Shown here: positions 1,946 to 37,149 of the stretch, in pieces
Layout of the letters: every line of letters begins with the position of its first letter
Numbering within the stretch: the stretch's first letter is position 1
Source of the DNA: Acidobacteriota bacterium
Lineage (GTDB): Bacteria; Acidobacteriota; Terriglobia; 20CM-2-55-15
Length of the DNA stretch: 40,793 nucleotides
Direction of reading: 5' to 3'
Assembly (NCBI GenBank): GCA_023265365.1
Contig: JAHFTY010000002.1
Coordinates: 13,612-54,404, forward strand
Position numbers and translations under genes: made by a program
Notes under the pieces: model-generated
Told to the model about the DNA's origin: nothing
Database searches by the model: none
What the model saw: the letters and a program-made list of their open reading frames with translations, nothing else

Positions 1946-4381
1946 TCACTGCATGGGAAGTGCCGCCAGGACGGACAGCGTCCGGGTTCCGAACACGGCA
2001 AAGCTCAGGATGTTTCGATCTGAGGTGAGCTTGAAATAGCCGCCGCTGCTGGGCGGCAACTGCGGAACGATCTCGGCAAGAAGTTGGGAGACTCTCCCGT
2101 TTGGCGGGACGATCGCCTGTCCGGCGCCAACCTTCGCTCCAGCGGTGTTGAAAACGGTCACCGTGACGGCAGCCGGTTCCGTGTTTCGATTGACGATCGC
2201 CACTCCCGTGAAGTACGTGGCGTCCTGCGCCACGTGCGCAAACAACGCCTCGCGAACCGTCTGGCCGATCAACGGCAGCGACGTTTCAAATCGTGCGCCG
2301 GCGGCGTCACCGTAGCGGACGAATCCGGTCATTAGATTCGAACTGCCGATGACCAGATAGCCATCGACCCCGGCCGCCGGTGGCGTGATGCCAAAAACAC
2401 CGGCGCCGCTGAACGTCAGCGACCCGAGCGCCGCGATCGGCCGGGAAATGGATTGGCCAAGACGAATGGCGGAGTTGTCGAACCAGGTGATATTGACGGT
2501 TGTATCGGTTGTTTCAAGATTGATGAGGGTCACCGTCGATTGGTACCCACCGCCTGCCACGTACTGAGGCGCATAGATATTCCTCGCGCCTCCATCCGCG
2601 TAAAGCGCAGGCATCGTCGTTTTGTCGCGCGCCGTTCCGGATTGAGCGATCGGAAACACCGGATCGGCCGACGTGATCCGAAGGTAACCGTCGCGATCGG
2701 CGGAAGACAGGACGACTCGCCCGCTCGGTGGGATGCGCGCGCTTCCCGGAGCCATGGGTTCCTTTCCGGCCGGGTCGAAAAGGCGGAACACGACGTCTGC
2801 GGGCCGGGTGGGATCCGGATTCGCTATCGAGATCGTAGCGCCACGCGCCTCGGGAACAATGAAATCGCGGGAAAGACGATTGGAGAGATTTCCGCCGTCG
2901 AGTGTGTTCAGCGCGGGATCGAAGTGAAGGTAGAAGCCCGAGATCCCGGGTTTCGAGGTGGAAATGCGAACACGGAAATCCGGCTCGATCGTCGGGCCGA
3001 ACCATTCGGAGGCAAGCCGCGCGATCTGCGTTCCAGCCGGAATCGAGACAGGCGACGATTTCATGATGGCGCCCGCGTTGTTGAAAGCCGTCAGACTGGT
3101 CTCGATCGGGCTCGAACTGGAATTCACCAGCGCGATGCCGGTCATGGCGGAACCGCTGTTGAACACCGACGGCAGGTCCATCGAGAGAGGATTGCCGTAG
3201 ACCAAATCCCGGATTCCCGTGATCTTCGCAAACGTCTCTCCGCCGTCCGTGCTTTTGTACATGAAATAGCCCTTGGCGCAGGCCCACACCACGCTGGGAT
3301 TGGAGTCGGAGATGCGGATGTCCACCATCTGGGCGTTCAACGGCAAGTCCGGATCGTTGTAGACCTCGCGCTGGCTGGCGAATCCATCCGAAGTTTTCAG
3401 AATGCCGGTTCTGCCCAGAAAAAGAACGGTGCGGCTGTCGCGAGGGTGCACGCGGATGGGTCCGAACAAGCCGGCATTGAGGGGGACCCAGGTGACGCCG
3501 CCATCGGTTGATTGATGAACGCGCCGGGAATCGCTGTCATCGTGGGCGTAAAGGATGTTTGGATCCTGCTTGAACGAGCCAAACCCATACACGAGCCGGG
3601 CTGCGGGATTGGAGATGCTCCATGTCTGGCCGCCGTCCGTGCTGCGGATGAAACCATAGGCCGCCGGAGCATCGGTTCCGTGAAGTTGCGCGGATGCATA
3701 GATCGTCCTCTGGTTCGCTCCTGCCAACTCCATATCGACAAAAATGTTCGTGCTGATGCCGGGAGGCGTCGGCAGCGCGGACCAGGATTCGGCAGCGTCG
3801 TTGCTGACCCAGATGCCGCCCTCATAGAAGGCGCCCGAATTTCCGAACGTGCTTTTCACACCGCCCAGGCCTGCGTAAACGCGGTTGTGATTCGTCGCGT
3901 CGACTTTGACGAACGTCACATAACTGTTCGTGAAGCCGTTGACCTTCTGAGTCCAGGTCAGGCCGCCGTCCGTACTCTTGTAGACGCCTCCGGAAGAACT
4001 GGGAAAAGCGGCGTTCCCAACCGGTCCCGGTCCATTGACGGTGGCCGCGTACAGGATTTGCGTGTTGGCCGGATCGATCGCGATATCGAAGATCTGCGAA
4101 TAGCCCGTCTTGTTGGGTGTGCATTTGAAACCCAGACGCAGCCGGGACCAGGTGACGCCGCCATCGACGGTCTTGAAGATGCCACTCGTTTCGGTTCCGG
4201 CATAGACGATGTTTTCATTGACGGGATCGATCGCGAGGGAATGAAACATGTGATCCTGAATGTTGCCGGGACCGCCTTTGAGCGCGCCGTTGATTTCGAC
4301 GGAGCAGTCGTCGGCCTGTTGCGGTGTGGCAACCGATGGGATCAGAAGGAGGATGGCGGTCAGGAATCCTTTCGCAACCAC
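1946..4381 (-). CDS. Secreted BNR/Asp-box repeat (sialidase/VPS10-like propeller) protein with C-terminal tandem modules
   Basis: Signal peptide; repeated S/T-x-D-G-G-x-T-W motifs (TVDGGVTWSR, STDGGLTWTQ, STDGGQTWSI, STDGGVTWVP); C-terminal repeats of 'GxAIVN...VTVFNxAGA...IPPNGR...GYxxLTS'. Confidence 0.85.
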   Translation of the reverse strand: MVAKGFLTAILLLIPSVATPQQADDCSVEINGALKGGPGNIQDHMFHSLAIDPVNENIVYAGTETSGIFKTVDGGVTWSRLRLGFKCTPNKTGYSQIFDIAIDPANTQILYAATVNGPGPVGNAAFPSSSGGVYKSTDGGLTWTQKVNGFTNSYVTFVKVDATNHNRVYAGLGGVKSTFGNSGAFYEGGIWVSNDAAESWSALPTPPGISTNIFVDMELAGANQRTIYASAQLHGTDAPAAYGFIRSTDGGQTWSISNPAARLVYGFGSFKQDPNILYAHDDSDSRRVHQSTDGGVTWVPLNAGLFGPIRVHPRDSRTVLFLGRTGILKTSDGFASQREVYNDPDLPLNAQMVDIRISDSNPSVVWACAKGYFMYKSTDGGETFAKITGIRDLVYGNPLSMDLPSVFNSGSAMTGIALVNSSSSPIETSLTAFNNAGAIMKSSPVSIPAGTQIARLASEWFGPTIEPDFRVRISTSKPGISGFYLHFDPALNTLDGGNLSNRLSRDFIVPEARGATISIANPDPTRPADVVFRLFDPAGKEPMAPGSARIPPSGRVVLSSADRDGYLRITSADPVFPIAQSGTARDKTTMPALYADGGARNIYAPQYVAGGGYQSTVTLINLETTDTTVNITWFDNSAIRLGQSISRPIAALGSLTFSGAGVFGITPPAAGVDGYLVIGSSNLMTGFVRYGDAAGARFETSLPLIGQTVREALFAHVAQDATYFTGVAIVNRNTEPAAVTVTVFNTAGAKVGAGQAIVPPNGRVSQLLAEIVPQLPPSSGGYFKLTSDRNILSFAVFGTRTLSVLAALPMQ

Positions 4382-13725: not shown

Positions 13726-13792
13726 TCTCTCCATGAAAATGCTCCCATTCGATACCACCACCGCGCAGCACAGAACTGTGGCTGGACGAGGA

Positions 13793-14005
13793 CTTTTCCC
13801 CGCCTTGGCCAAGGCGGGGTGCCGCGGAGCGGCGGGGCGGTTCGACCAATAAAATCCTTTTCTTGAAAGCACCACCCCGGCGCTTCGCGCCACCCCTCCT
13901 CGTCGAGGAGGGGAAAACGCTTTTCCTCGATTTCGCTTCATTGGGACAGCAGTGCCTCAACGAGGGGAAAACGCTTTTCCTCGATTTCGCCTTATTGGGA
14001 CAGCA
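13793..14005 (+). repeat. Dispersed multi-hairpin repeat, copy 1 (with duplicated 3' segment)
   Basis: ccccgccttggccaaggcgggg palindrome, gccgcggagcggcggggcggttc, ggcgcttcgcgcc hairpin, cccctcctcgtcgaggagggg palindrome, then gaggggaaaacgcttttcctcgatttcgcYtYattgggacagca twice. Confidence 0.9.
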
Positions 14006-18834: not shown

Positions 18835-19017
18835 GTTCCCCGCCTTGGCCCAGACGGGGTGCCGCGGAGCGGCGGGGCGGTTCGTCCAACAAAAATCAAT
18901 TTCTTGAACAGCACCACCCCGGCGCTTCGCGCCACCCCTCCTCGTCGAGGAGGGGAAAAACGCCTTATGGGGAAAGTAGTGCCCCGACGAGGAGGGTGGC
19001 GCGAAGCGCCGGAGTGG
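18835..19017 (+). repeat. Dispersed multi-hairpin repeat, copy 2 plus inverted half-copy
   Basis: ccccgccttggcccagacggggtgccgcggagcggcgggg ... ggcgcttcgcgccacccctcctcgtcgaggagggg, then the opposite-strand gacgaggagggtggcgcgaagcgccggagtgg. Begins within about 8 nt of the 18830 stop. Confidence 0.9.
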
Positions 19018-23703: not shown

Positions 23704-24738
23704 GTGAATAACACCACGATTCGATCGGACTGGACCCGCAGGGAAATCGAAAATATCTACAACCTGCCATTGCTGGACCTCGTGTTCGACGCCCAGGGCG
23801 GGTATCGCCGCCATTTCGGCGCGCCGGAAGTGCAGTTATGCCAGCTCCTGTCCATCAAGACGGGCGGCTGTCCCGAAGATTGCGCCTACTGTCCTCAGAG
23901 CGCGCACTATTCCACCGCGGTTAAAAGAGAAGACCTGATGTCCGTTTCCGAAGTGAAAGGCATTGCCGAACAGGCTCGCGCGGATGGCGTTGAGCGTTTC
24001 TGCATGGGTGCGGCCTGGCGAGAAGTGAAGGACGGCGAGGAGTTTGACCGCGTCCTGGAGATGGTTCGAGCGGTGGCGGCCACCGGCATGGAAGTGTGCT
24101 GCACGCTCGGGATGCTGACCGAGTCGCAGGCGCAGCAGCTTGCCGAAGCGGGACTGACCGCGTACAACCACAATCTCGATACGTCGCCCGAGTACTACGG
24201 CGAGATCATCTCGACCCGGAACTATGCCGACCGTTTAAAGACGCTCGGCGCTGTGCGAAGCGCGGGCATTTCGGTGTGCTCCGGCGGAATCATCGGAATG
24301 GGCGAGTCCGACGGGGATCGCATTGGCCTGCTGCATCAGCTCGCCACGCTGAGCCCGCATCCGGAAAGCGTCCCGATCAATATGCTTGTTCGTGTGGAAG
24401 GCACGCCGCTCGAGGATGCCGAAACGATCGACCCGCTCGTGCTGGTCCGCATGATCGCCACGGCACGCCTGCTCATGCCCGCGTCGCGCGTTCGCCTGAG
24501 TGCGGGACGCCGCTCCCTGACGCGGGAAGCGGCCGCGCTTTGTTTTATGGCCGGCGCGAACTCCATTTTCGTTGGAGAAAAACTGCTGACGACTCCGAAC
24601 CCCGATCGCGACGACGACTATGCGCTGCTCGGTTCGCTCGGCTTGAAACGCGAGCGGCGCGAATCCAAAGCCAGCCCGATAAGCACCGCAGCGGTGACGG
24701 CCGATATCAGCAGCCCGATTCTGAAACTCGGCGACTGA
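23704..24738 (+). CDS. bioB: Biotin synthase
   Basis: Radical-SAM CxxxCxxC in '[17 protein letters not shown]'; '[26 protein letters not shown]'; '[25 protein letters not shown]'. Confidence 0.95.
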
Positions 24739-26494
24739 AACTCGAACCGCACGTCGTGCTGCCCCTCCGGAACCTCGATCGCCGTTAACGCGAAGTCGGC
24801 CGGAAATACGTCCACGCTCCGCTCGTCGACAGAGGCTGCCCAGCCCGGATAGTAGATCTGGCTCACCACGAGCACGCTCGGCGACTCCGCGGTGACTCTC
24901 ATTGCAAAACTGGCACGGCCTGGAGTCCGTACACGGATTGAACATTCTCCGGATAGGCGCCATTGACCTGCACGATTCGAAAAGGCTCCGGCCCCCGCCC
25001 CGGCAGACGATCGAACAACTCCACCGGCGGAAAGATATGCGCAGGATCCGAAAACGGCATGAACCCATAACTGAAGCTCAGAACATCCAGACAGACAAGA
25101 CTCACCACTGCCACGCGAAAGGGCGCGACCGGGAGTTTCCCGAGAAGGCGGAGCAGAAGCAGAAGCGCGCTCGCCGCCAGCAGCATGGCCGAAACGCGCG
25201 GATACCGTGACGGCTCGGATACGGCGAACGTGAGACTGCGGAGCGCGTAAATCAGCGAGAGCGCAATCGCGCATCCCGTGAACATCAAAATCGAAGCCCG
25301 CGCAAGCTGCCGTCGCGGCTTCGGCTGGCTCCATCGCTCCAGTTCCGAAATTCCAAGGCCGGCGAGCACGGCAATACCGAACGCGCCGGCAAAAATCAGC
25401 CGGGAATTCTTGATTCCCTGAATGAGCGGCAGTTTCAGCGAAAACCAGTACATCGGGCCCACGCCATACGCGACCGACAGGATAATCGCTGTCCAGATCG
25501 CGAGGAACACGGCCACCCTTCGAGACCGGTTCATGAACGCGAGAGGCGCCGCCGCAAAGGCGAGCATGCCGATGTAGGCGGCCTGCTCCGGAATCTCGAT
25601 GCCGGCGGAACTGGTCGAATGCAGGATGTCGCGCGAGACCCAGGAAACTACCGTCCACAACGGCTGGTGCGGCCACGAATCGCTCAGCGACCGGTACGCG
25701 TGATCGACCCATTCCATGCTCGGCAGCAGTTGCACGGCAGCCAGGCCGGCCGGCAGGAAAGCCGAAGCCATGAAGCCCAGGATGAACGTTGTTCCCGGTC
25801 GCGATGCAAAGAGGAATGCCGCAAAGGCCAACGCTGTCAGCGTCGTGTGTACGACGGTTTCGGGATGGCCCGCCAGAACCGGCATGGCGAAGGCAATCGA
25901 GGCCAGAATCACATTGCCGGTCGACGGTTGTTCATGCAGCCGGAAAACGGCCAGGCAGATGAATGGAAGAGCGATCGCGGCGTCGTACATCGCCTGGGCC
26001 TGCCACGCCGTCAGAAATCCGCAGAACGCGAACAACACCGCCGCCGTGACCGCGCCGGTGGTTGTACCGCCCACGCGCCGGACAAATGCGGCGGTGAACA
26101 GAATCACGAGGAGAACCTTTAATGCGGAAACCAGCCCCCAGGCCATGGCGGTCGGCAGCACGTAAAACGGAATCGTCAACGGATAAAAGATGGCCGACTG
26201 TGCGCTCGCCAGCAACGGCGTGCCGGAGAGCATGTAGGGGTTCCACAGTGGAATTTCACGGTTTCTCACAGCATCCGCGGCAATGGCGCGAAACGGATAG
26301 AAAGACGTTACGACGTCTCCGATGTTGGCCGGAACCTGCAGCGGTTCCCGCGGCGCCGACTGCATGAAGGCGGGCCACTGGAAAACAACGAAGGAAGGAA
26401 ACGGAACTTTACCGAGAAGCATGCGGCCGTCGACAACGCCGATCGACAAAACCGCGACGCCGATAACGGCGATCCAGAATCGGCGATCCATCAC
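24618..26494 (-). pseudogene. YfhO-family membrane glycosyltransferase-like gene, disrupted by internal deletion/frameshift (N part 24899..26494; C-terminal domain in another frame, about 24618..24905)
   Basis: N part is polytopic YfhO-like ('PLWNPYMLSGTPLLASAQSAIFYPL', '...PENVQSVYGLQAV') and stops at 24899. The YfhO tail '[65 protein letters not shown]' follows immediately in a different frame. Confidence 0.75.
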
Positions 26495-27192
26495 TTTTGC
26501 GCGAAAACCGCGTACTGTCCGCCCAGCGGCAAACCGGACAGCGCGCTTTCCAGCGACGCGAGACGGCGATGAAGGAATTGGGGAAGCAGAAGAAAATAGC
26601 TCCAGTCGATGATCCTGGCTCCTGAATCAAGGAGAAGCCGCCGGGCTTCCCTGAGCCGGAGCAATTGCGCATTCGCGTCCACGGGTGCCCGGGCGACGAT
26701 GACGCGCGTGACCGGATTGAGCGGATTGTGTTCGATGATGCACATGATCCCGTCCGGTTTCAGCAGCCGTTTCATTTCCAGCGTCAGCAGCGCACGGCCC
26801 TCCGGCGGGACGTGGTGGTAGACCGAGACGGCGGTCACGAAGTCGAAGGCGCCATCGTCGAAAGGCAGCTTGTCCGGCGGATCCTGCCGCCGGACGTCGA
26901 ATGGGGCGCAGGCTTTCAGCATTTCTTCGGAGGGGTCGCATCCCGACACCGATTGGAAGTGAGTTTGTCCGGCACGCATGAGATCGCCCCGGCCGCATCC
27001 GACGTCGAGCCAGGCCAGGCTGTTGGTGCTTATGCCGCGTTTCCGGTAGAACGTTTCGATGACCTGGATTTTGCGTTTGAAGAAGAAATCGGTCGAAGCG
27101 GCAAAGCGGTCGCGAATCGGATCGCGGACGAGTTCTCCGTAATTGCCGGCGTAGGCGTCAAACTCGGTCGGCGGCTTCGGTTTGTCGCTCAT
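26491..27192 (-). CDS. Class I SAM-dependent methyltransferase
   Basis: 'LAWLDVGCGRGDLMRAG' motif I, 'LPFDDGAFDFVTAVSVYHHVP', 'LKPDGIMCIIEHNPLNP'. 4-bp overlap with the YfhO gene. Confidence 0.9.
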   Translation of the reverse strand: MSDKPKPPTEFDAYAGNYGELVRDPIRDRFAASTDFFFKRKIQVIETFYRKRGISTNSLAWLDVGCGRGDLMRAGQTHFQSVSGCDPSEEMLKACAPFDVRRQDPPDKLPFDDGAFDFVTAVSVYHHVPPEGRALLTLEMKRLLKPDGIMCIIEHNPLNPVTRVIVARAPVDANAQLLRLREARRLLLDSGARIIDWSYFLLLPQFLHRRLASLESALSGLPLGGQYAVFAQK

Positions 27193-28168
27193 GAGAATCG
27201 TCGACGGTGAGGATCACGCCTCGGGTTGTGGGCGCCTGCCGGGCCGCCACGTTGGCGCTTTCGGTGACCACGTAGAGCGGACGACCCTTCGCCTCCTCGT
27301 AGATTCGAGCGATGTAGTCTCCCACGAGGCCGATCGCCATCAGGGTCGCTCCGGAGAAAACAATGTTCAGGCACACGAGCGACGTCCAGCCAGGAACCGT
27401 CGAGTGGAGCACCGTTTCGGCAAAGATGCTGTAGAACGCATAGCCGAACCCGACGGCGGTGACGAAAAAACCGAACCAGATCGTGAGGCGCAGTGGCAAC
27501 GCCGAGAAGGAAGAGATCGCCGTCCATGCGAGCCGAAGCATCTTCCATGTCGAGTATTTCGTGGTTCCCGCGACCCGCGCGTTGCGATGATACGGAAGAA
27601 TGACTTCCTTCAAGCCAAGCCAGGCCACCATTCCGCGCATGAACCGGTGCTGTTCGCGGAGTTGACGAATCGCGATCACGGCGCGCCTGCTGAACATCCG
27701 GAAATCGCCGACCTCGGGTTGGATCCGCTCGTCGACCATCCGTCGCATCACCCAGTAAAAGAACGTTGCAGTGAGCCGTTTGACCGGGCTCTCGCCGTCA
27801 CGGCCGGTGCGTTGCGCGGAGACGACGTCGTAGCCGTGATTCAACAGCTCGATCATGTCGAGAAGAAGCTCCGGAGGGTCCTGCAGATCCGCATCGATAA
27901 CAGCGACGGCATCGCCCGACGCCTGATCCAGACCCGCGGTGATCGCGGCTTGGTGTCCGAAATTGCGTCCGAAGAAAAGCACCTTGACGCGTGCGTCGGC
28001 GGCCGCCGCGCTCTTCAGCAACGGGACCGAACCGTCAGTGCTGCCATCGTCGACCAGAATGATCTCGTAGTCGCACGCCGTGCCCGCCATCACGCGTTCG
28101 AGCGTGGAAAGCAGCTTCGGCAAAACTTCGATTTCGTTGTAAACGGGAACAACAATGGAAACGCGCAT
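27158..28168 (-). CDS. Family 2 polyprenyl-phosphate glycosyltransferase (GtrB/DPM1-like, two C-terminal TM helices)
   Basis: ATG 28168; 'MRVSIVVPVYNEIEVLPKLLSTLE', 'IILVDDGSTDGS', 'AVIDADLQDPPELL', C-terminal TM pair 'IWFGFFVTAVGFGYAF...LMAIGLVGDYIARIYEEAKGRPLYVV'. Confidence 0.9.
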   Translation of the reverse strand: MRVSIVVPVYNEIEVLPKLLSTLERVMAGTACDYEIILVDDGSTDGSVPLLKSAAAADARVKVLFFGRNFGHQAAITAGLDQASGDAVAVIDADLQDPPELLLDMIELLNHGYDVVSAQRTGRDGESPVKRLTATFFYWVMRRMVDERIQPEVGDFRMFSRRAVIAIRQLREQHRFMRGMVAWLGLKEVILPYHRNARVAGTTKYSTWKMLRLAWTAISSFSALPLRLTIWFGFFVTAVGFGYAFYSIFAETVLHSTVPGWTSLVCLNIVFSGATLMAIGLVGDYIARIYEEAKGRPLYVVTESANVAARQAPTTRGVILTVDDSHERQTEAADRV

Positions 28169-28320
28169 CAATCCGCCGATTCTAGCACGCGGCGCCGGGA
28201 ATAAACGGCCAGAGCGCCAAGGAAGCCAAGGAAGAGCGCAGTCGCGGCCGAGATCCACAGACCGGTACGGAATGCGCTCGATCGAAACTCAACTCGAAGT
28301 CCAGTCGTGCCATGGGATTT
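28168..28320 (-). pseudogene. 3' remnant of a second YfhO-like gene
   Basis: Manual translation KSHGTTGLRVEFRSSAFRTGLWISAATALFLGFLGALAVYSRRRVLESAD*; resembles the tail of the 24618..26494 gene ([37 protein letters not shown]). Stop overlaps GT2 start as TGATG. Confidence 0.7.
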
Positions 28321-28342
28321 TGCAGTGTACAATAATCGGCTC

Positions 28343-29488
28343 ATGCGAACGAGGTGGAAGACTCACGCGATTCTTGCTCGCCTGCAGGCGGAACTGGACG
28401 AACTCCAAAGGGCCGATCAGTTCCGGAAGGTTGGCGCCGTTGAGGGAATCAACCTCTGCTCCAATGATTATCTCGGCCTCAGTGACGACCCGCGGCTCAA
28501 GCTGGCATTGACATCCGCTATCGAACGACAGGGCGAACGCGTGTGCTCCACCGGCTCGCGGCTTCTCTCCGGAAACTCCAGCCAATGGGAGATGCTCGAA
28601 GCGAAGGCGGCCTCCTTTGTCGGCGCGGAAGCGGCCGTGTGTTTCAGTTCAGGCTATCTTGCAAATATCGGTGTGCTCACTTCTCTGCTGGGGCCGGAGA
28701 CAACCGTGTTTTCCGATGCCGCCAATCACGCGAGCATCATCGACGGCATCCGGCTCTCGCGCGCCAACAAGGTGATTTTTCCCCACGGCGATCTTCAGTT
28801 TCTCGAAGAGATGCTTCGGGCATCGAACGACACCCGGGAGCGATTCATCGTGGTCGAGAGTGTTTTCAGCATGGACGGCGACCTCGCTCCGATCGAGGAT
28901 TTGTACGTTCTCGCCGCCCGGTATGACGCGGGACTGATCGTCGACGAGGCGCATGCGACCGGCGTTATGGGGCCGAATGGCCGCGGCATCGTCGCGCAGA
29001 GCGGGCGTCCGGACTGCGTCATTGCCACGATTCACACGTGCGGAAAAGCCCTCGCCTCGACGGGCGCGTTCGTGGCGTGCGCGGAAACGACACGGCGATA
29101 CATTGTGAACAAGGCGCGTTCCTTCATTTTCAGCACGGCCCTGCCGCCATTCGCCGCAGAGCAGATTTCGGAAGCGCTGAGCATCGTCGCCGGGGAGGAC
29201 GAGCGCCGGCGTCATCTGCGGCTTCTTTCGGAGTATTTGCGCGTGGAGTTGAACAGCCGGGGTTTCGATACGAGCCGCTCCGAATCGCATATCGTTCCTG
29301 TCGTGCTTGGCTCGAACGACACGGCGTTGTCTGTTGCCCAATCTCTCATCGACCGGGGCTTCGGCGTAAAAGCGATCCGGCCTCCAACCGTTCCTGCCGG
29401 GACCGCGCGCCTGCGCCTTTCATTGACGTCGCGCCTCCGCTTCGACGACCTTGCGACGCTGGTCCGGGCCCTCTGCGATGCCCGCTAG
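28343..29488 (+). CDS. bioF: 8-amino-7-oxononanoate synthase
   Basis: 'LCSNDYLGLSDDPRLK', 'STGSRLLSGNSSQWEMLE', 'DEAHATGVMGPNGRG', 'ALSVAQSLIDRGFGVKAIRPPTVPAGTARLRLSLTS'. Lys region is 'TIHTCGKALASTGAFV'. Confidence 0.93.
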   Translation: MRTRWKTHAILARLQAELDELQRADQFRKVGAVEGINLCSNDYLGLSDDPRLKLALTSAIERQGERVCSTGSRLLSGNSSQWEMLEAKAASFVGAEAAVCFSSGYLANIGVLTSLLGPETTVFSDAANHASIIDGIRLSRANKVIFPHGDLQFLEEMLRASNDTRERFIVVESVFSMDGDLAPIEDLYVLAARYDAGLIVDEAHATGVMGPNGRGIVAQSGRPDCVIATIHTCGKALASTGAFVACAETTRRYIVNKARSFIFSTALPPFAAEQISEALSIVAGEDERRRHLRLLSEYLRVELNSRGFDTSRSESHIVPVVLGSNDTALSVAQSLIDRGFGVKAIRPPTVPAGTARLRLSLTSRLRFDDLATLVRALCDAR

Positions 29489-30110
29489 CGATCTCTTCAT
29501 TACCGGAACCGACACGAATGTCGGCAAGACGGTTTTGTGCGCGACGTTGTGTGCCGGACTCGGTTACTCGTATTGGAAGCCCGTTCAGACCGGAACCGTG
29601 GAAAGCTCCGATCGTGACGCCGTGATCCGGTACGCCGGCATTCCGGAATCGCAGACGGCGCCCGAAATCTACCGGTTCGAACCGCCGGTTTCGCCGCACC
29701 TCGCTGCGCGCCGCGCCGGCATCCGGATCGAGATCGATCGCTTTCGACGCCCGGCCATGGACGCTCCTCTCGTCATTGAAGGGGCCGGGGGCATTCTGGT
29801 TCCACTGAATGAGGACCACCTCATGCTCGACTTGATGCGGCGCCTCGGCGCTCCCGTTGTGCTTGCCGCACGCACCACATTGGGAACGATCAATCACACG
29901 CTGCTCAGCGTTCACGCGCTCCGGCATGCGGGCATCGCGTTGAAGGGAGTCGTGATGATCGGCGATCCGGACGAAGACAACCGGCGCGCGATCGAACATT
30001 ATGGCGATGTGCGTGTAGCCGGTGAGATTCCCATGCTGCAGGAAATCTGTCGTCACACGCTGCTGGATGTTTTTAATCGACACTTCGATGGCGGCTTCTG
30101 GAAGGAATGA
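29478..30110 (+). CDS. bioD: Dethiobiotin synthetase
   Basis: 'LFITGTDTNVGKTVLCATL' P-loop, 'YWKPVQTG', 'VIEGAGGILVPLNED'. Confidence 0.93.
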   Translation: MPASDLFITGTDTNVGKTVLCATLCAGLGYSYWKPVQTGTVESSDRDAVIRYAGIPESQTAPEIYRFEPPVSPHLAARRAGIRIEIDRFRRPAMDAPLVIEGAGGILVPLNEDHLMLDLMRRLGAPVVLAARTTLGTINHTLLSVHALRHAGIALKGVVMIGDPDEDNRRAIEHYGDVRVAGEIPMLQEICRHTLLDVFNRHFDGGFWKE

Positions 30111-31390
30111 AAATCTGGCGTCCCTACACACAGGCCGCACTGGATCCACCGCCCATCGCGATCGACCGCGGTGAAGGTGCGCTCCTCTACACCAGGGATG
30201 GCCGCAAGCTCATCGACGGTATTTCGTCCTGGTGGGTGAACATTCACGGCCATGGCCATCCGCTGATCGCCGAAGCCATTGGGGAGCAGGCCCGCAAACT
30301 CGAGCAGGTCATCTTCGCGGGATTCACCCACGAGCCGGCCGAACAGCTGACTCACGGTCTGAAAAAGATTCTTCCGGGAGAACTGTCGCACATCTTTTTT
30401 TCGGACGACGGATCGACCGCGGTCGAAGTCGCGTTGAAGATGGCGCTGCAATTCTGGCGGAACAGCGGGCAGCCGCAGCGGACCAGATTTGTCGCTCTCG
30501 ATCGCGCGTATCACGGCGACACGGCCGGGGCGATGTCTGTGAGCGACGACTCTCCCTTCACCACAGCGTTCGACACCATGCGATTCCCGGTCATGCGAGG
30601 CCACTCCGCCGATTGCTTCCGTTGCCCCGTCGGAAAAGTCCGGGAGACGTGCAATATCGAGTGCCTGGATCGCTTGCGTATCGTGTTCGAGCGGCATCAT
30701 CGTGAAATCGCGGCAATCATTGTGGAACCGCTGATCCAGGGGGCGGCCGGAATGATCATTCATCCGGTGGAGTTCCTGCGGCGTCTTCGCACGATGGCTA
30801 CCGGGTTCGGCATTCCGCTCATTGCCGACGAGGTGTTTACCGGGTTCGGCCGGACCGGCGCGATGTTCGCATGTGAGCTTGCGGCCGTCGTTCCGGACAT
30901 GATGTGCCTTTCAAAAGGACTGACCGGCGGATTTCTTCCCATGGGAGCGACGGTCTGCACGGAAGAAATCCATAAGGCGTTCGATGTGCCGGACCGGTCC
31001 CGGACCTTCTTTCACGGGCATTCCTACACCGGAAATCCGCTCGGCTGCGCCGCCGCGAACGCCAGTCTCCGCGTGTTCGAGACCGAACCCGTGTTTGAGC
31101 GGATTCGCGCGATCGAAGCGATTCACCGGGAACGGCTTTCGAAATTGTCCGGGCATCCCTCGGTCGCAACCACGCGTTTTCTCGGCGACCTCGGCGTGCT
31201 CGAACTGAAAGCGCCCGACGCCGGTTACCTTTCCGGCATTCGCGAGCGTTTGTATTCATTCTTTATCGATCGCGGTGTGCTGCTGCGTCCGTTGGGCAAT
31301 GTCATTTATGTCCTGCCGCCTTATGTCATCGCGCCGGAACAACTGCACTATATTTACGATGTACTGACCGCTGCCGTGGAAATGGTATGA
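30107..31390 (+). CDS. bioA: Adenosylmethionine-8-amino-7-oxononanoate aminotransferase
   Basis: 'IWRPYTQ', 'LIDGISSWWVNIHGHGHP', 'LIADEVFTGFGRTGAMFACE', 'LSKGLTGGFLPMGATV'. ATGA overlap with bioD. Confidence 0.95.
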   Translation: MKIWRPYTQAALDPPPIAIDRGEGALLYTRDGRKLIDGISSWWVNIHGHGHPLIAEAIGEQARKLEQVIFAGFTHEPAEQLTHGLKKILPGELSHIFFSDDGSTAVEVALKMALQFWRNSGQPQRTRFVALDRAYHGDTAGAMSVSDDSPFTTAFDTMRFPVMRGHSADCFRCPVGKVRETCNIECLDRLRIVFERHHREIAAIIVEPLIQGAAGMIIHPVEFLRRLRTMATGFGIPLIADEVFTGFGRTGAMFACELAAVVPDMMCLSKGLTGGFLPMGATVCTEEIHKAFDVPDRSRTFFHGHSYTGNPLGCAAANASLRVFETEPVFERIRAIEAIHRERLSKLSGHPSVATTRFLGDLGVLELKAPDAGYLSGIRERLYSFFIDRGVLLRPLGNVIYVLPPYVIAPEQLHYIYDVLTAAVEMV

Positions 31391-32330: not shown

Positions 32331-33131
32331 ATGACGGTCATCATACCTTATCGCGAGTGGGGGCAAGGAACCCCGCTGCTCTTTCTTCATGGCGGCTGGG
32401 GCTATGCGATGTACCCGTTCGACATCCAGATCGCCGCTCTCCGGGATCGATACCGTATCCTGATTCCGGATCGCGCCGGCTACGGGAAAGCCGCCCGCGT
32501 GACCTCGTTTCCCCGTGGATTTCACGAGAACGCCGCCCGGGAAATGCTCGAGTTTCTGGATTCCCTGAATATCGAGAGATGCGTTCTCTGGGGACACAGC
32601 GACGGTGCGGTGACTGCCATTCGGATGGGCCTGTCGCAGCCGGAAAGGTTTTCGGCGATCGTTGGAGAAGCCATTCACTATGACCGCTCGAAACCTTCGT
32701 CTCGCGCATTCTTTGAAACGGCGGCCACCAATCCGCGCGGATTTGGTTCGGGGGTCGCGAAAGCGATGGCGAGCGAGCATGGGGAAGACTATTGGGAGTT
32801 TCTGATGCGGGTTCACGGAAAGGCGTGGCTCGACATTCTGGACAACTGTTCCGATCCGGAGCAGGATCTCTACTCCGGACGCATCGGCGAACTGCCGGTT
32901 CCCACGCTTCTCATCCATGGCTCCCGGGATCCGCGGACGGAAGCGGGTGAGTTGGACCGTCTTCAGGAAGCTCTGCCGGCCCTGAGGGTCCATCTGATTT
33001 CCGGCGCCACGCACAGTCCTCACAGCGAACCCGAATACGCGTCGGAAGCCACGCGGGTGGTGGAAGCATTCCTGAAGGAGTGTCTGACAAGACTTCAACT
33101 CCCCTCCGACGAGGCAAGGCTGTCCCAATAA
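32331..33131 (+). CDS. Alpha/beta hydrolase, C-terminus altered by insertion/duplication
   Basis: 'TPLLFLHGGWGYAMYPFD', nucleophile elbow 'LWGHSDGA', 'TLLIHGSRDPRTEAGE', 'GATHSPHSE'. Ends FLKECLTRLQLPSDEARLSQ*, where the second copy of the same DNA ends FLKERQ*. Confidence 0.9.
   Translation: MTVIIPYREWGQGTPLLFLHGGWGYAMYPFDIQIAALRDRYRILIPDRAGYGKAARVTSFPRGFHENAAREMLEFLDSLNIERCVLWGHSDGAVTAIRMGLSQPERFSAIVGEAIHYDRSKPSSRAFFETAATNPRGFGSGVAKAMASEHGEDYWEFLMRVHGKAWLDILDNCSDPEQDLYSGRIGELPVPTLLIHGSRDPRTEAGELDRLQEALPALRVHLISGATHSPHSEPEYASEATRVVEAFLKECLTRLQLPSDEARLSQ
32962..33080 (+). repeat. 119-bp exact direct repeat, copy A (3' end of hydrolase)
   Basis: Base-for-base identical to 34610..34728 by direct reading. 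Confidence 0.95.
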
Positions 33132-33276
33132 GGCGAAATCAGGGAAAAGCATTTTCCCCTCCTCGACGAGGAGGGGTGGCGCGAAGCGCCGGGGTGGTGC
33201 TTTCAGGAATCTCATTTTCTTGGTCGAACCGCCCCGCCGCTCGGCGGCACCCCGCCTTGGCCAAGGCGGGGAAAAG
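33100..33276 (-). repeat. Dispersed multi-hairpin repeat, copy 3 (inverse orientation)
   Basis: cccctcctcgacgaggaggggtggcgcgaagcgccggggtggtgc...gaaccgccccgccgctcggcggcaccccgccttggccaaggcgggg. Confidence 0.9.
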
Positions 33277-33553
33277 ACTTCGTCCTGCGACTCCACGGTT
33301 TCACGTAATAACGTTTCGCTTGTCCCTTGAACCCGGCCTTTGCGGCCCATCTGAAGGCGATTCCGCCAAACTCGCCGATCTGTAAACATGCAATGGATGC
33401 AATGGACCCATACACAATGGACCCATACGTTGACGACCCCGCCTGTTTTCCTTATCCTCAGGGACCTGCGGAAGCGTTTCACCTATGCCGCTGTGCCGTT
33501 TTGCTCTACCGCGGTTGGGCTGGACCAGCCTGGCGCACCAGAAGGAGGATACC

Positions 33554-34501
33554 GTGTCTGACACCGTTACACTGTCGGGCTCCGAAGAGGGCTCCGACTA
33601 CGACGAATTGGATATCACCGGCGACGACGAGGCCAACATCACCGTGGCTCCCCGAAAACCCCGCAAAGAAATTATTCCGCCACGAAAACCGGAGACTTTT
33701 CCTCCGCTTGATTTTGGACCGCCACCGTACGGAGCAAAAAAAGTGAGTGCCAGCGGAAGAATGATTGAATATGTCGTGGTGGAGATCGATGTGCCGAGGG
33801 AATGTTGTATCAGGTGTACAAGGTGGCGCCAGATGATCACAGACGGCGGCGATGTTCTCGACCCCATGATCACTTGGCGTTTCACGAAGTGCGGGAACGA
33901 CTCCCAGACCAAGGACCGGCTCCGGCGCATGTTTGGCCGACGGTCTGGCCATTGGCAGGGGACGCAACCCGCAGACAAGTCGGTCAAGGTGATCGGACCC
34001 TTCCCGTCAGGACGCTTCGTGAAAGGGGTGGTCAAGCTCCGCGCAGGCTCGCCCTTTGAGCTGCGGGGCCTCGATTCCGGGGCTGAAGTCCGCAGCGGCG
34101 ACCTGACGTTTGGGAGTGAACAAGCCGTCTTCCGAGACGCCGAAGGTAACGTCATTCCCCTGCGCCTGGATGGCCGCCTCATCGTGGCTGAACCCGTGGT
34201 CGTGTGGCAGGGCGAGACTCCGTCGGGGGCCGTGCGGGTGGAAAAAGATGTGGAGACGGGTGTCGTGGTACAAAAACTGAACGGCATTCCGGTTGTGAGG
34301 ATCACTCCGAACGTCGATTTTCATGTCCTCTTCCACGCCGAAATCGACACGATGAACCGCAGCGCCCGCATCCTGGACGAAGGTGGCCGGCCCATATCGG
34401 TATCTATCGAGATCAAGGACGAGGCCGCGCGATTGGTCATCGAGTCGGGCGCCGGGCAAGCCGTTGCCGTGGATTTGCGGACAGGGAATGTTATCCATTG
34501 A
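33554..34501 (+). CDS. Orphan hypothetical protein (cargo of the insertion)
   Basis: GTG start 3 nt after GAAGGAGGAT; MSDTVTLSGSEEGSDYDELDITGDDEANITVAPRKPRKEIIPPRKPETFPPLDFGPPPYG... with a CCIRC motif and beta-rich C-terminal half. No family recognised. Confidence 0.7.
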   Translation: MSDTVTLSGSEEGSDYDELDITGDDEANITVAPRKPRKEIIPPRKPETFPPLDFGPPPYGAKKVSASGRMIEYVVVEIDVPRECCIRCTRWRQMITDGGDVLDPMITWRFTKCGNDSQTKDRLRRMFGRRSGHWQGTQPADKSVKVIGPFPSGRFVKGVVKLRAGSPFELRGLDSGAEVRSGDLTFGSEQAVFRDAEGNVIPLRLDGRLIVAEPVVVWQGETPSGAVRVEKDVETGVVVQKLNGIPVVRITPNVDFHVLFHAEIDTMNRSARILDEGGRPISVSIEIKDEAARLVIESGAGQAVAVDLRTGNVIH

Positions 34502-34576
34502 GAAAAGTTGTCAAACCGGCCAACGAAAACCGCGTGGTTGAAACAGCGTCGTATGCGTAAAGATCAATGGAATTAA

Positions 34577-34592
34577 CGCGACAATTGTCGCG
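34577..34592. promoter_or_regulatory. 16-bp perfect palindrome CGCGACAATTGTCGCG
   Basis: Read directly, between the cargo gene and repeat copy B. Confidence 0.5.
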
Positions 34593-34609
34593 ACGACGCA
34601 GTACAGCAT

Positions 34610-34728
34610 TTCAGGAAGCTCTGCCGGCCCTGAGGGTCCATCTGATTTCCGGCGCCACGCACAGTCCTCACAGCGAACCCGAATACGCGTCGGAAGCCAC
34701 GCGGGTGGTGGAAGCATTCCTGAAGGAG
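34610..34728 (+). repeat. 119-bp exact direct repeat, copy B (orphan hydrolase tail before SpoIIE gene)
   Basis: Identical to 32962..33080; followed by cggcaGTGAac, the stop/start overlap with the SpoIIE gene. Confidence 0.95.
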
Positions 34729-34733
34729 CGGCA

Positions 34734-36716
34734 GTGAACATCTGGTCGAAGCTCAAAGGTCTGACAAGACTTCAACGCGTCACTCTGATTCTGTTTGTTG
34801 CGATGATCGTGAATTCCATCCTGGATTCCACGATCGGCTACCAGCTTCTGGGTGGCGACCTTCTCGGCGTTCTATTCACGTTTTCGCTCTTCTTCCTGAT
34901 CCTCAGCCTGATCAAACCGCTCACGCGGCGTCTGGTGTGGCGTGTGCGCAACCGGCTGTTGGTGACGTATGTCCTGTTCGGCGTGGTCCCCATCGCTTTG
35001 ATATTCGTGATGCTGGGGATTGGTTCCTACATTCTGTTCGGGCAAATTGCAGCAAACCTGGTCCGGGAAGAAATCCAGCGCCTCACCGATAACGCGGTTT
35101 CGGCCGCGCGCGCGGTGGCGCTCCTCTCCGATCGTCCGGAGGACGCGCTTCGGCTTTTTCCGGGAATGTCGGTCGTTGTGCGATCGGGATCGAGTCTTCG
35201 CGACATCCCGGTCGACGGCATCATCCTGGATATTCCGTCCTGGATCACACCGGGATTCAAAGGCGTTGTTCAAAGGGATACAACCTTCATGCTTGCGGCT
35301 GCCGTGCGGCTTGAGGCGGCGGGCCATCGCGTTGACGTCCTGGCGTACTCGCCGATCGATTCGAAAATGCTCGGCGAATTCGATCCCGATCTCGGCGCTG
35401 TCTCTGTTTACGACACGCAGTTCGAGTCGGCCGATGGAGGTGTCCGGCTCAGCGAAAGCAAGCAGCCCAGCTCCGGTTTCCGGTTCACGACGAGCCGCCG
35501 CGGGCAGGACAATCCCAATCCGCAGGCACGGCCCATCGTCACGTCCGCCCGCACGTTGCCGGAGCCGCGAGGTTTCTGGGATTTTCAGGTGGAATGGCCG
35601 TCCATCCTGGCGGTCACGCGGCTGGACGGCACGTCTCATAACGCCATCCTGGCAGTGGCGTCGCGTGCGTCGATGTTCATTCCAAGGCTTTTCAGCTCGC
35701 TCGGCACGATCGCCCCGATCATGGGTTACGCCCTGCTCGTGATCGCGTTCATTTTCCTGTTCGTCGAAGTGATTTCCCTCATGCTAAGCGCCGGCCTCAC
35801 GCGTTCGATCACTCGCGCCGTTCACGACCTGTATCTCGGAACGAAGAAAGTGGCGAACGCGGATTTTTCGCATCGCATTCCGGTGCGCAGCCGGGATCAA
35901 CTCAGCGAACTCGCCGCCTCGTTCAACGGAATGACGGAGCAGATCCGGCGACTGATCGACGAGGTGAAGGAAAAAGAAAAGCTCGAAGCGGAACTCGAGA
36001 TCGCGCGCGAGGTCCAGGCGCAGTTGTTTCCGAAGGGGATTCCCCAGTTGAAGACGCTCGAACTGGCAGGCGTCTGTAATCCGGCACGGGTCGTGAGCGG
36101 CGACTACTATGACTTCGTTCCCATCGCCGCGCGTTACATGGCAATCGTGATCGCCGACATCTCCGGGAAGGGCATTTCCGCCGCGCTGCTGATGGCGAGC
36201 GTTCAGTCCTCGCTGCACGCGCAACTGACGAACCGGGAGAATGGGGAGACGCCGTCGACCGCAACACTGGTCGCCCGGTTGAACCGCCAGTTGTACGAAA
36301 ACACGCCTCCCGAAAAGTACGCCACGTTCTACTGCTCCATTTACGACGATCAAAGCGGCTGCCTGGCCTACACGAACGCCGGACATCTGCCTCCCATCCT
36401 GGTGCGCAGTGGGAATGCGAGCCGCCTTGAAGGTAACGGAATCGTGGTGGGAATCCTCCCGGATGCTCCTTACGAACAGGTCGTCATCCAGCTTCAGCCG
36501 GGAGACCTTCTCGCGGCCTTCACGGATGGCATTACCGAATCGGAAAATGAAAAGGGTGAGGAATTCGGAGAAACGCGTCTGGCGGGTCTGCTGGTGGAAC
36601 ACGCTGCCAAACCTTTGGACCGGATTGTCGAAATCGTGACACAGACCGTCCGCGAATGGGCCTACGACTTCGACAATCGCGACGATACGACTATGCTACT
36701 CGCTCGACGGGTCTAG
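34734..36716 (+). CDS. Membrane sensor phosphatase: TM + HAMP + SpoIIE/PP2C (RsbU-like)
   Basis: HAMP-like 'GLTRSITRAVHDLYLGTKKVANADFSHRIPVRSRDQLSELAASFNGM'; PP2C motifs 'EIAREVQAQLFPKGIP', 'VSGDYYDFVPI', 'IADISGKGISAALLMASVQ', 'FTDGITESEN', 'DDTTMLLARRV'. Confidence 0.93.
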   Translation: MNIWSKLKGLTRLQRVTLILFVAMIVNSILDSTIGYQLLGGDLLGVLFTFSLFFLILSLIKPLTRRLVWRVRNRLLVTYVLFGVVPIALIFVMLGIGSYILFGQIAANLVREEIQRLTDNAVSAARAVALLSDRPEDALRLFPGMSVVVRSGSSLRDIPVDGIILDIPSWITPGFKGVVQRDTTFMLAAAVRLEAAGHRVDVLAYSPIDSKMLGEFDPDLGAVSVYDTQFESADGGVRLSESKQPSSGFRFTTSRRGQDNPNPQARPIVTSARTLPEPRGFWDFQVEWPSILAVTRLDGTSHNAILAVASRASMFIPRLFSSLGTIAPIMGYALLVIAFIFLFVEVISLMLSAGLTRSITRAVHDLYLGTKKVANADFSHRIPVRSRDQLSELAASFNGMTEQIRRLIDEVKEKEKLEAELEIAREVQAQLFPKGIPQLKTLELAGVCNPARVVSGDYYDFVPIAARYMAIVIADISGKGISAALLMASVQSSLHAQLTNRENGETPSTATLVARLNRQLYENTPPEKYATFYCSIYDDQSGCLAYTNAGHLPPILVRSGNASRLEGNGIVVGILPDAPYEQVVIQLQPGDLLAAFTDGITESENEKGEEFGETRLAGLLVEHAAKPLDRIVEIVTQTVREWAYDFDNRDDTTMLLARRV

Positions 36717-36914
36717 GAGCATGCTCTCCCCTTCCGGTTCTGCGTGGGACCGTAACGTCCCTTTCGCCAACTGCGCGATGCCATGAATGATCAAAAACAA
36801 CCCACTGGCGAGAAGAACTCCCGACACACCGAGTAAAACGGACATCAAAATTACGTCGCGGAACATATCTAATAACTTAATGAGCAATCGCGATGCCGGA
36901 AACTGCTGATGCAC
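36696..36914 (-). CDS. Small membrane protein (GTG start)
   Basis: 72 aa with two hydrophobic stretches; convergent overlap with the SpoIIE gene end. Confidence 0.4.
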   Translation of the reverse strand: MHQQFPASRLLIKLLDMFRDVILMSVLLGVSGVLLASGLFLIIHGIAQLAKGTLRSHAEPEGESMLLDPSSE

Positions 36915-36930
36915 AAAGGGGAGATCGAGG

Positions 36931-37061
36931 AGAAGCGTTTTCCCCTCCTCGACGAGGAGGGGTGGCGCGAAGCGCCGGGATGGTGTTCAAGAAAAGGATT
37001 TTATTGAACGAACCGCCCCGCCGCTCCGCGGCACCCCGCCTTGGCCAAGGCGGGGAAAAGT
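36931..37061 (-). repeat. Dispersed multi-hairpin repeat, copy 4 (inverse orientation)
   Basis: cccctcctcgacgaggaggggtggcgcgaagcgccgggatggtgttcaagaaaaggattttattgaacgaaccgccccgccgctccgcggcaccccgccttggccaaggcgggg. Confidence 0.9.
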
Positions 37062-37149
37062 CAAAGCCAGCCCTCCACCGCAATTTGGACTGCTCCTCCT
37101 CGCCGCCGGCATTCGAATTGCGCTTTTAGTCGTTGAAGGAGGCCGGGAC

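Follow-up and report, generated by a model that had tools for sequence, protein, structure and literature searches.

Insertions formed by illegitimate recombination with duplication leave a direct copy of the target on both sides, together with a small deletion and a filler base. Homology-facilitated illegitimate recombination and single-crossover integration (PMC3240628) combine a homologous anchor with an illegitimate join and leave repeats behind; bacterial examples of single crossing-over by circularised DNA have been documented (PMC3240628). Transposons place direct repeats of a few bases at each end of the insert. Finally, the REP and palindromic families tagged by GTAG and CGTC (PMC3733652) are high-copy, palindromic and dispersed. 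We describe an insertion between a hydrolase gene and a SpoIIE gene in an Acidobacteriota genome, found in a stretch of 40,793 nucleotides that was analysed as a whole (hereafter the window). The locus has the direct duplication, small deletion and filler base of the first class, but its duplication is long for bacteria (167 bp) and one edge of the insert is a repeat of a dispersed family. It has the anchor, illegitimate join and repeats of the second, but the homology is only 119 bp and no donor molecule is known. As in transposition, direct repeats lie at each end of the insert, but at 167 bp they are far longer than the usual few bases, and they come with neither transposase nor inverted ends. 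The family repeat is high-copy, palindromic and dispersed like the REP families, but it is ~213 bp long with several hairpins, an end tag was not found, and it does not flank the Y1 transposase of the genome. The scar looks unusual in detail and ordinary in kind, and does not look like a new type of mobile element.

The genes and the junctions are arranged as follows:

32331-33131, forward strand: alpha/beta hydrolase gene, with native coding to 33080 and then 16 foreign codons (Pfam Abhydrolase_1, E = 3.9e-20; homologues)
32962-33080, forward strand: copy A of the 119-bp direct repeat, the 3' end of the hydrolase (100% identity to 34610-34728)
33081, forward strand: single T in place of 30 bp of copy B (34729-34758), from direct comparison
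33082-33099, forward strand: 18 bp of the SpoIIE head kept in copy A (identity to 34759-34776)
33100-34609, forward strand: inserted DNA, 1,510 bp, extending from one copy of the duplicated block to the other
34610-34776, forward strand: copy B of the duplicated block, 167 bp, with hydrolase stop and SpoIIE start intact
34734-36716, forward strand: intact gene for a SpoIIE-type phosphatase with a HAMP domain (Pfam SpoIIE, E = 1.8e-48; HAMP, E = 1.2e-10)

The first-pass annotation had reported an exact 119-bp direct repeat around an insertion of ~1.5 kb. Direct sequence comparison agrees on both counts: the two stretches are identical at 119 of 119 positions, and the insertion can now be delimited exactly. 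When the window was simulated ten times under a dinucleotide model, the longest repeats measured only 14-16 bp. After the repeat, copy B continues with CGGCAGTGAACATCTGGTCGAAGCTCAAAG and then GTCTGACAAGACTTCAAC, while copy A continues with T and then GTCTGACAAGACTTCAAC. The latter is the second identity between the copies, which had rightly been seen to recur within SpoIIE but as a 17-mer; it is 18 bp long. Likewise, the loss in copy A had been counted as 31 bp replaced by 2, which is the same event with the count shifted by one base (30 bp replaced by 1). The duplicated block thus spans 32962-33099 in copy A, a length of 138 bp, against 167 bp in copy B, and its ends coincide with those of the insert.

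Both copies contain a hydrolase tail followed by a SpoIIE head. Copy A is contiguous with the full hydrolase and copy B with the full SpoIIE gene. Because each copy carries parts of both genes, the content of the block requires that hydrolase and SpoIIE were neighbours before the event. In copy B the hydrolase stop and the SpoIIE start overlap as GTGA. In copy A the hydrolase frame reads through into the insert and ends with CLTRLQLPSDEARLSQ and a stop. Both details are as first annotated, as is the read-through into repeat-family DNA, with which the insert begins. Seven class-level homologues of the hydrolase stop at, or within a few residues of, the stop of copy B (FLKERQ and stop), and the longer tail of copy A is, on this comparison, derived. 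The identity of the two copies argues that the scar is recent and well preserved.

We searched relatives for the uninterrupted pair with its GTGA overlap, as the first-pass annotation had proposed, and found none in the family, class and phylum samples; two public genome scans for an empty site also returned nothing. Hydrolase homologues at 42-55% identity were not followed by SpoIIE in the flanks examined, and SpoIIE relatives were found without the hydrolase. The nearest SpoIIE orthologue (L069; 75% identity over the last 153 residues, with conserved downstream genes) starts at a contig edge. The pairing seems private to this lineage, which would explain why relatives offer no uninterrupted pair. 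The case for an ancestral contiguous state is therefore internal to the locus: of the contiguous, coupled ancestor originally proposed, adjacency is supported by both copies and the seven homologue ends, while an uninterrupted relative was not found.

Insert and duplicated block end at the same positions, so a single event probably accounts for both the duplication and the insertion. One could instead suppose that the 167-bp junction was first duplicated in tandem, and that repeat and gene were inserted and the 30 bp deleted later. Every step of this would be ordinary, but the insert sits exactly at the boundary of the two units, for which a separate insertion has a chance of ~1/167, and we give this order of events little credence.

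We favour, at about an even chance, a non-transpositional insertion by illegitimate repair or recombination that formed the duplication and captured DNA with the lineage's own repeat at one edge. Such an event should leave a flanking duplication whose ends are those of the insert, which is what we found. The hydrolase/SpoIIE junction would have suffered a break or a stalled fork, whose repair left 167 bp around the junction on either side of a captured 1.5-kb fragment, for example by fill-in of widely staggered ends or by template switching. The fragment, attached by end joining, would have had the lineage's REP-like repeat as its left edge and carried the orphan gene as accessory cargo. In the left copy, 30 bp would have been skipped by slippage and one base added, during synthesis or trimming. 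We infer the break, the synthesis, the order of the steps and the source of the fragment. The genome encodes a Ku gene, and illegitimate joining typically leaves small non-templated changes such as the one in copy A. However, this change lies 18 bp inside the junction and requires slippage or a second step.

This last point is where the main rival does better. A single crossover (Campbell-type integration) of a 1,648-bp circle or concatemer that carried the hydrolase tail, the T, the 18-mer, the repeat and the orphan gene would, by one exchange within the 119-bp identity, yield exactly the observed structure. The 30-bp difference would simply be the version of the incoming molecule, with no deletion needed after the event, and the genome encodes a ComEC-type competence domain. 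Yet the altered junction of the incoming molecule itself needs an earlier illegitimate join to the repeat, a replication gene is lacking, and we found no plasmid, phage or viral relative of the cargo. We consider this integration unlikely.

The inserted DNA consists of a dispersed hairpin-rich repeat (first 213 bp) and 1,297 bp of single-copy sequence, with the following features:

33100-33312, forward strand: copy of the dispersed hairpin-rich (REP-like) repeat, flush with the left junction (genome matches, alignment, four window clusters)
33430-33458, forward strand: sigma-70-like promoter match, TTGACG-17-TATCCT (consensus scan only, 1 found against 0.5 expected)
33554-34501, forward strand: orphan gene of 315 aa, GTG start behind AAGGAGG (codon-position GC; no family or relative)
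34577-34592, no strand: perfect 16-bp palindrome CGCGACAATTGTCGCG, 17 bp from the right junction (read from sequence)

The palindrome might serve as an operator or mark a break site. Elsewhere in the genome, the insert is matched only over its positions 1-217. The repeat family has at least 40 copies there at E below 1e-60 (423 first-look candidates), and 157 clusters in a 1.57-Mb sample. It is high-copy and palindromic, as expected of REP-type elements, although its ends are ragged and a GTAG/CGTC terminal tag was not obvious by eye in the alignment. Copies align from ~33100-33111 to ~33312 and have variable flanks, which places the left junction, by this alignment, at or a few bases from a natural end of the element. 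Relatives have mainly short cores of the repeat, mostly ~45-100 bp. As full-length matches come from this genome, the fragment probably originated in this lineage or one very close to it. The genome holds the cargo only once and thus shows no resident donor, which may have been lost, be unassembled or never have been present.

The window contains three more clusters of the repeat (13778-14005, 18836-19017 and 36898-37062), two of them inverted relative to 33100-33312 and one just downstream of the SpoIIE gene. We considered whether the downstream repeat (36898-37062) had mediated a tandem duplication and rejected this, as the similarity of the repeats is only ~88% and the downstream site lacks the cargo.

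Direct repeats on both sides, and the natural 5' end that several other repeat copies have within a few bases of the left-junction position, would suit a transposable element whose target-site duplication is unusually long. But a Pfam search found no transposase domain in the insert, which has only one good open reading frame; no inverted repeat of at least 16 bp pairs its ends; and the genome holds no second copy of the 1.5-kb unit. Nor did we find a short target duplication at the insert, or a match to it in Rfam. REP elements of the RAYT type go with a Y1 (RAYT) transposase that the repeat flanks; the sole Y1-type transposase of this genome (L205 1324-2136) has no copy of the studied repeat in its 3.3-kb locus; it lies near different hairpins, GGGGACAGTCCCC / GGGGACTGTCCCC. 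Among the 157 clusters, only one other (L082) has a long local duplication at a repeat edge. We consider a transposable element decidedly unlikely, in line with the initial remark that 119 bp is too long for a usual target-site duplication.

A high-copy repeat is also the most likely route to an assembly or strain-mixture artefact; the first-pass annotation had asked that an assembly join be considered. The genome is in 362 contigs and the repeat is multi-copy. However, the window has no N, contig ends share no overlaps of 119 bp or of k-mer size, and a misjoin within the repeat leaves the duplication unexplained. Because an overlap join cannot write a T and 18 bp of SpoIIE between the hydrolase tail and the repeat, an assembly join is unlikely to account for everything, and we regard an artefact as quite improbable.

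We surveyed 1.57 of the 4.72 Mb of the genome for local duplications and found 18 local repeats outside the repeat family. Two of these combine an identity of 95% or more with a length of 100 bp or more, and both abut a family member: the insertion described here and a 121-bp duplication in L082 (3085-3205 / 3901-4022; 96.7% identity) that begins 1 bp away from its neighbouring family repeat. The L082 duplicate is a piece of a dienelactone-hydrolase-like gene (named from its translation), ~370 bp past the gene end. It is older than the hydrolase/SpoIIE duplication, occupies the other edge of its repeat and does not form a flanking pair. The end of a repeat pair falls within 20 bp of a family edge with a chance of ~3% per event. 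Because one of the two cases is the insertion itself, the involvement of repeat edges is only suggestive, a lead and not a result. The scar offers a testable hint that repeat edges may be fragile or prone to joining. It is very doubtful that they are systematic points at which this lineage captures accessory genes together with duplications of more than 100 bp of neighbouring genes, duplications that would let downstream genes keep a coupled start. Elsewhere, far from the repeat family, two 168-bp stretches in L139 (12898-13065 and 19461-19628) are 90% identical and probably represent the ends of paralogous genes.

The orphan gene, which has a good ribosome-binding site, is the one convincing gene in the single-copy part of the insert. 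Its codon-position GC (0.64/0.46/0.68) is like that of the neighbouring genes, and its product has an acidic, proline-rich N-terminus. Searches against Pfam, NCBIfam, PHROGs, PDB, plasmids, phages, viral contigs and genomes gave no match or none that was significant; weak class-level matches (L060, L061) are short and marginal. An AlphaFold model made with no alignment is unusable (pLDDT 34.5).

It had been said that the insertion split the gene pair. It does lie between the two genes, but splitting is too strong a word: the hydrolase retains its catalytic region, including the conserved THSPHS motif, and SpoIIE its full frame. An accessory or foreign gene can thus enter a tightly overlapping gene pair with neither gene destroyed. 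Moreover, the duplicated junction gives the downstream gene an overlapping upstream frame:

34567-34737, forward strand: new frame of 56 codons, 14 from the insert fused to the duplicated hydrolase tail, ending in the GTGA/SpoIIE overlap

It opens with an ATG in the insert, with no notable ribosome-binding site upstream, and continues into the hydrolase tail in its native frame. As it still overlaps the SpoIIE start, translational coupling of SpoIIE could survive. Upstream of the insertion, the window contains biotin-synthesis-like genes (bioB-, bioF-, bioD- and bioA-like, named from translations) at 23704-31390.
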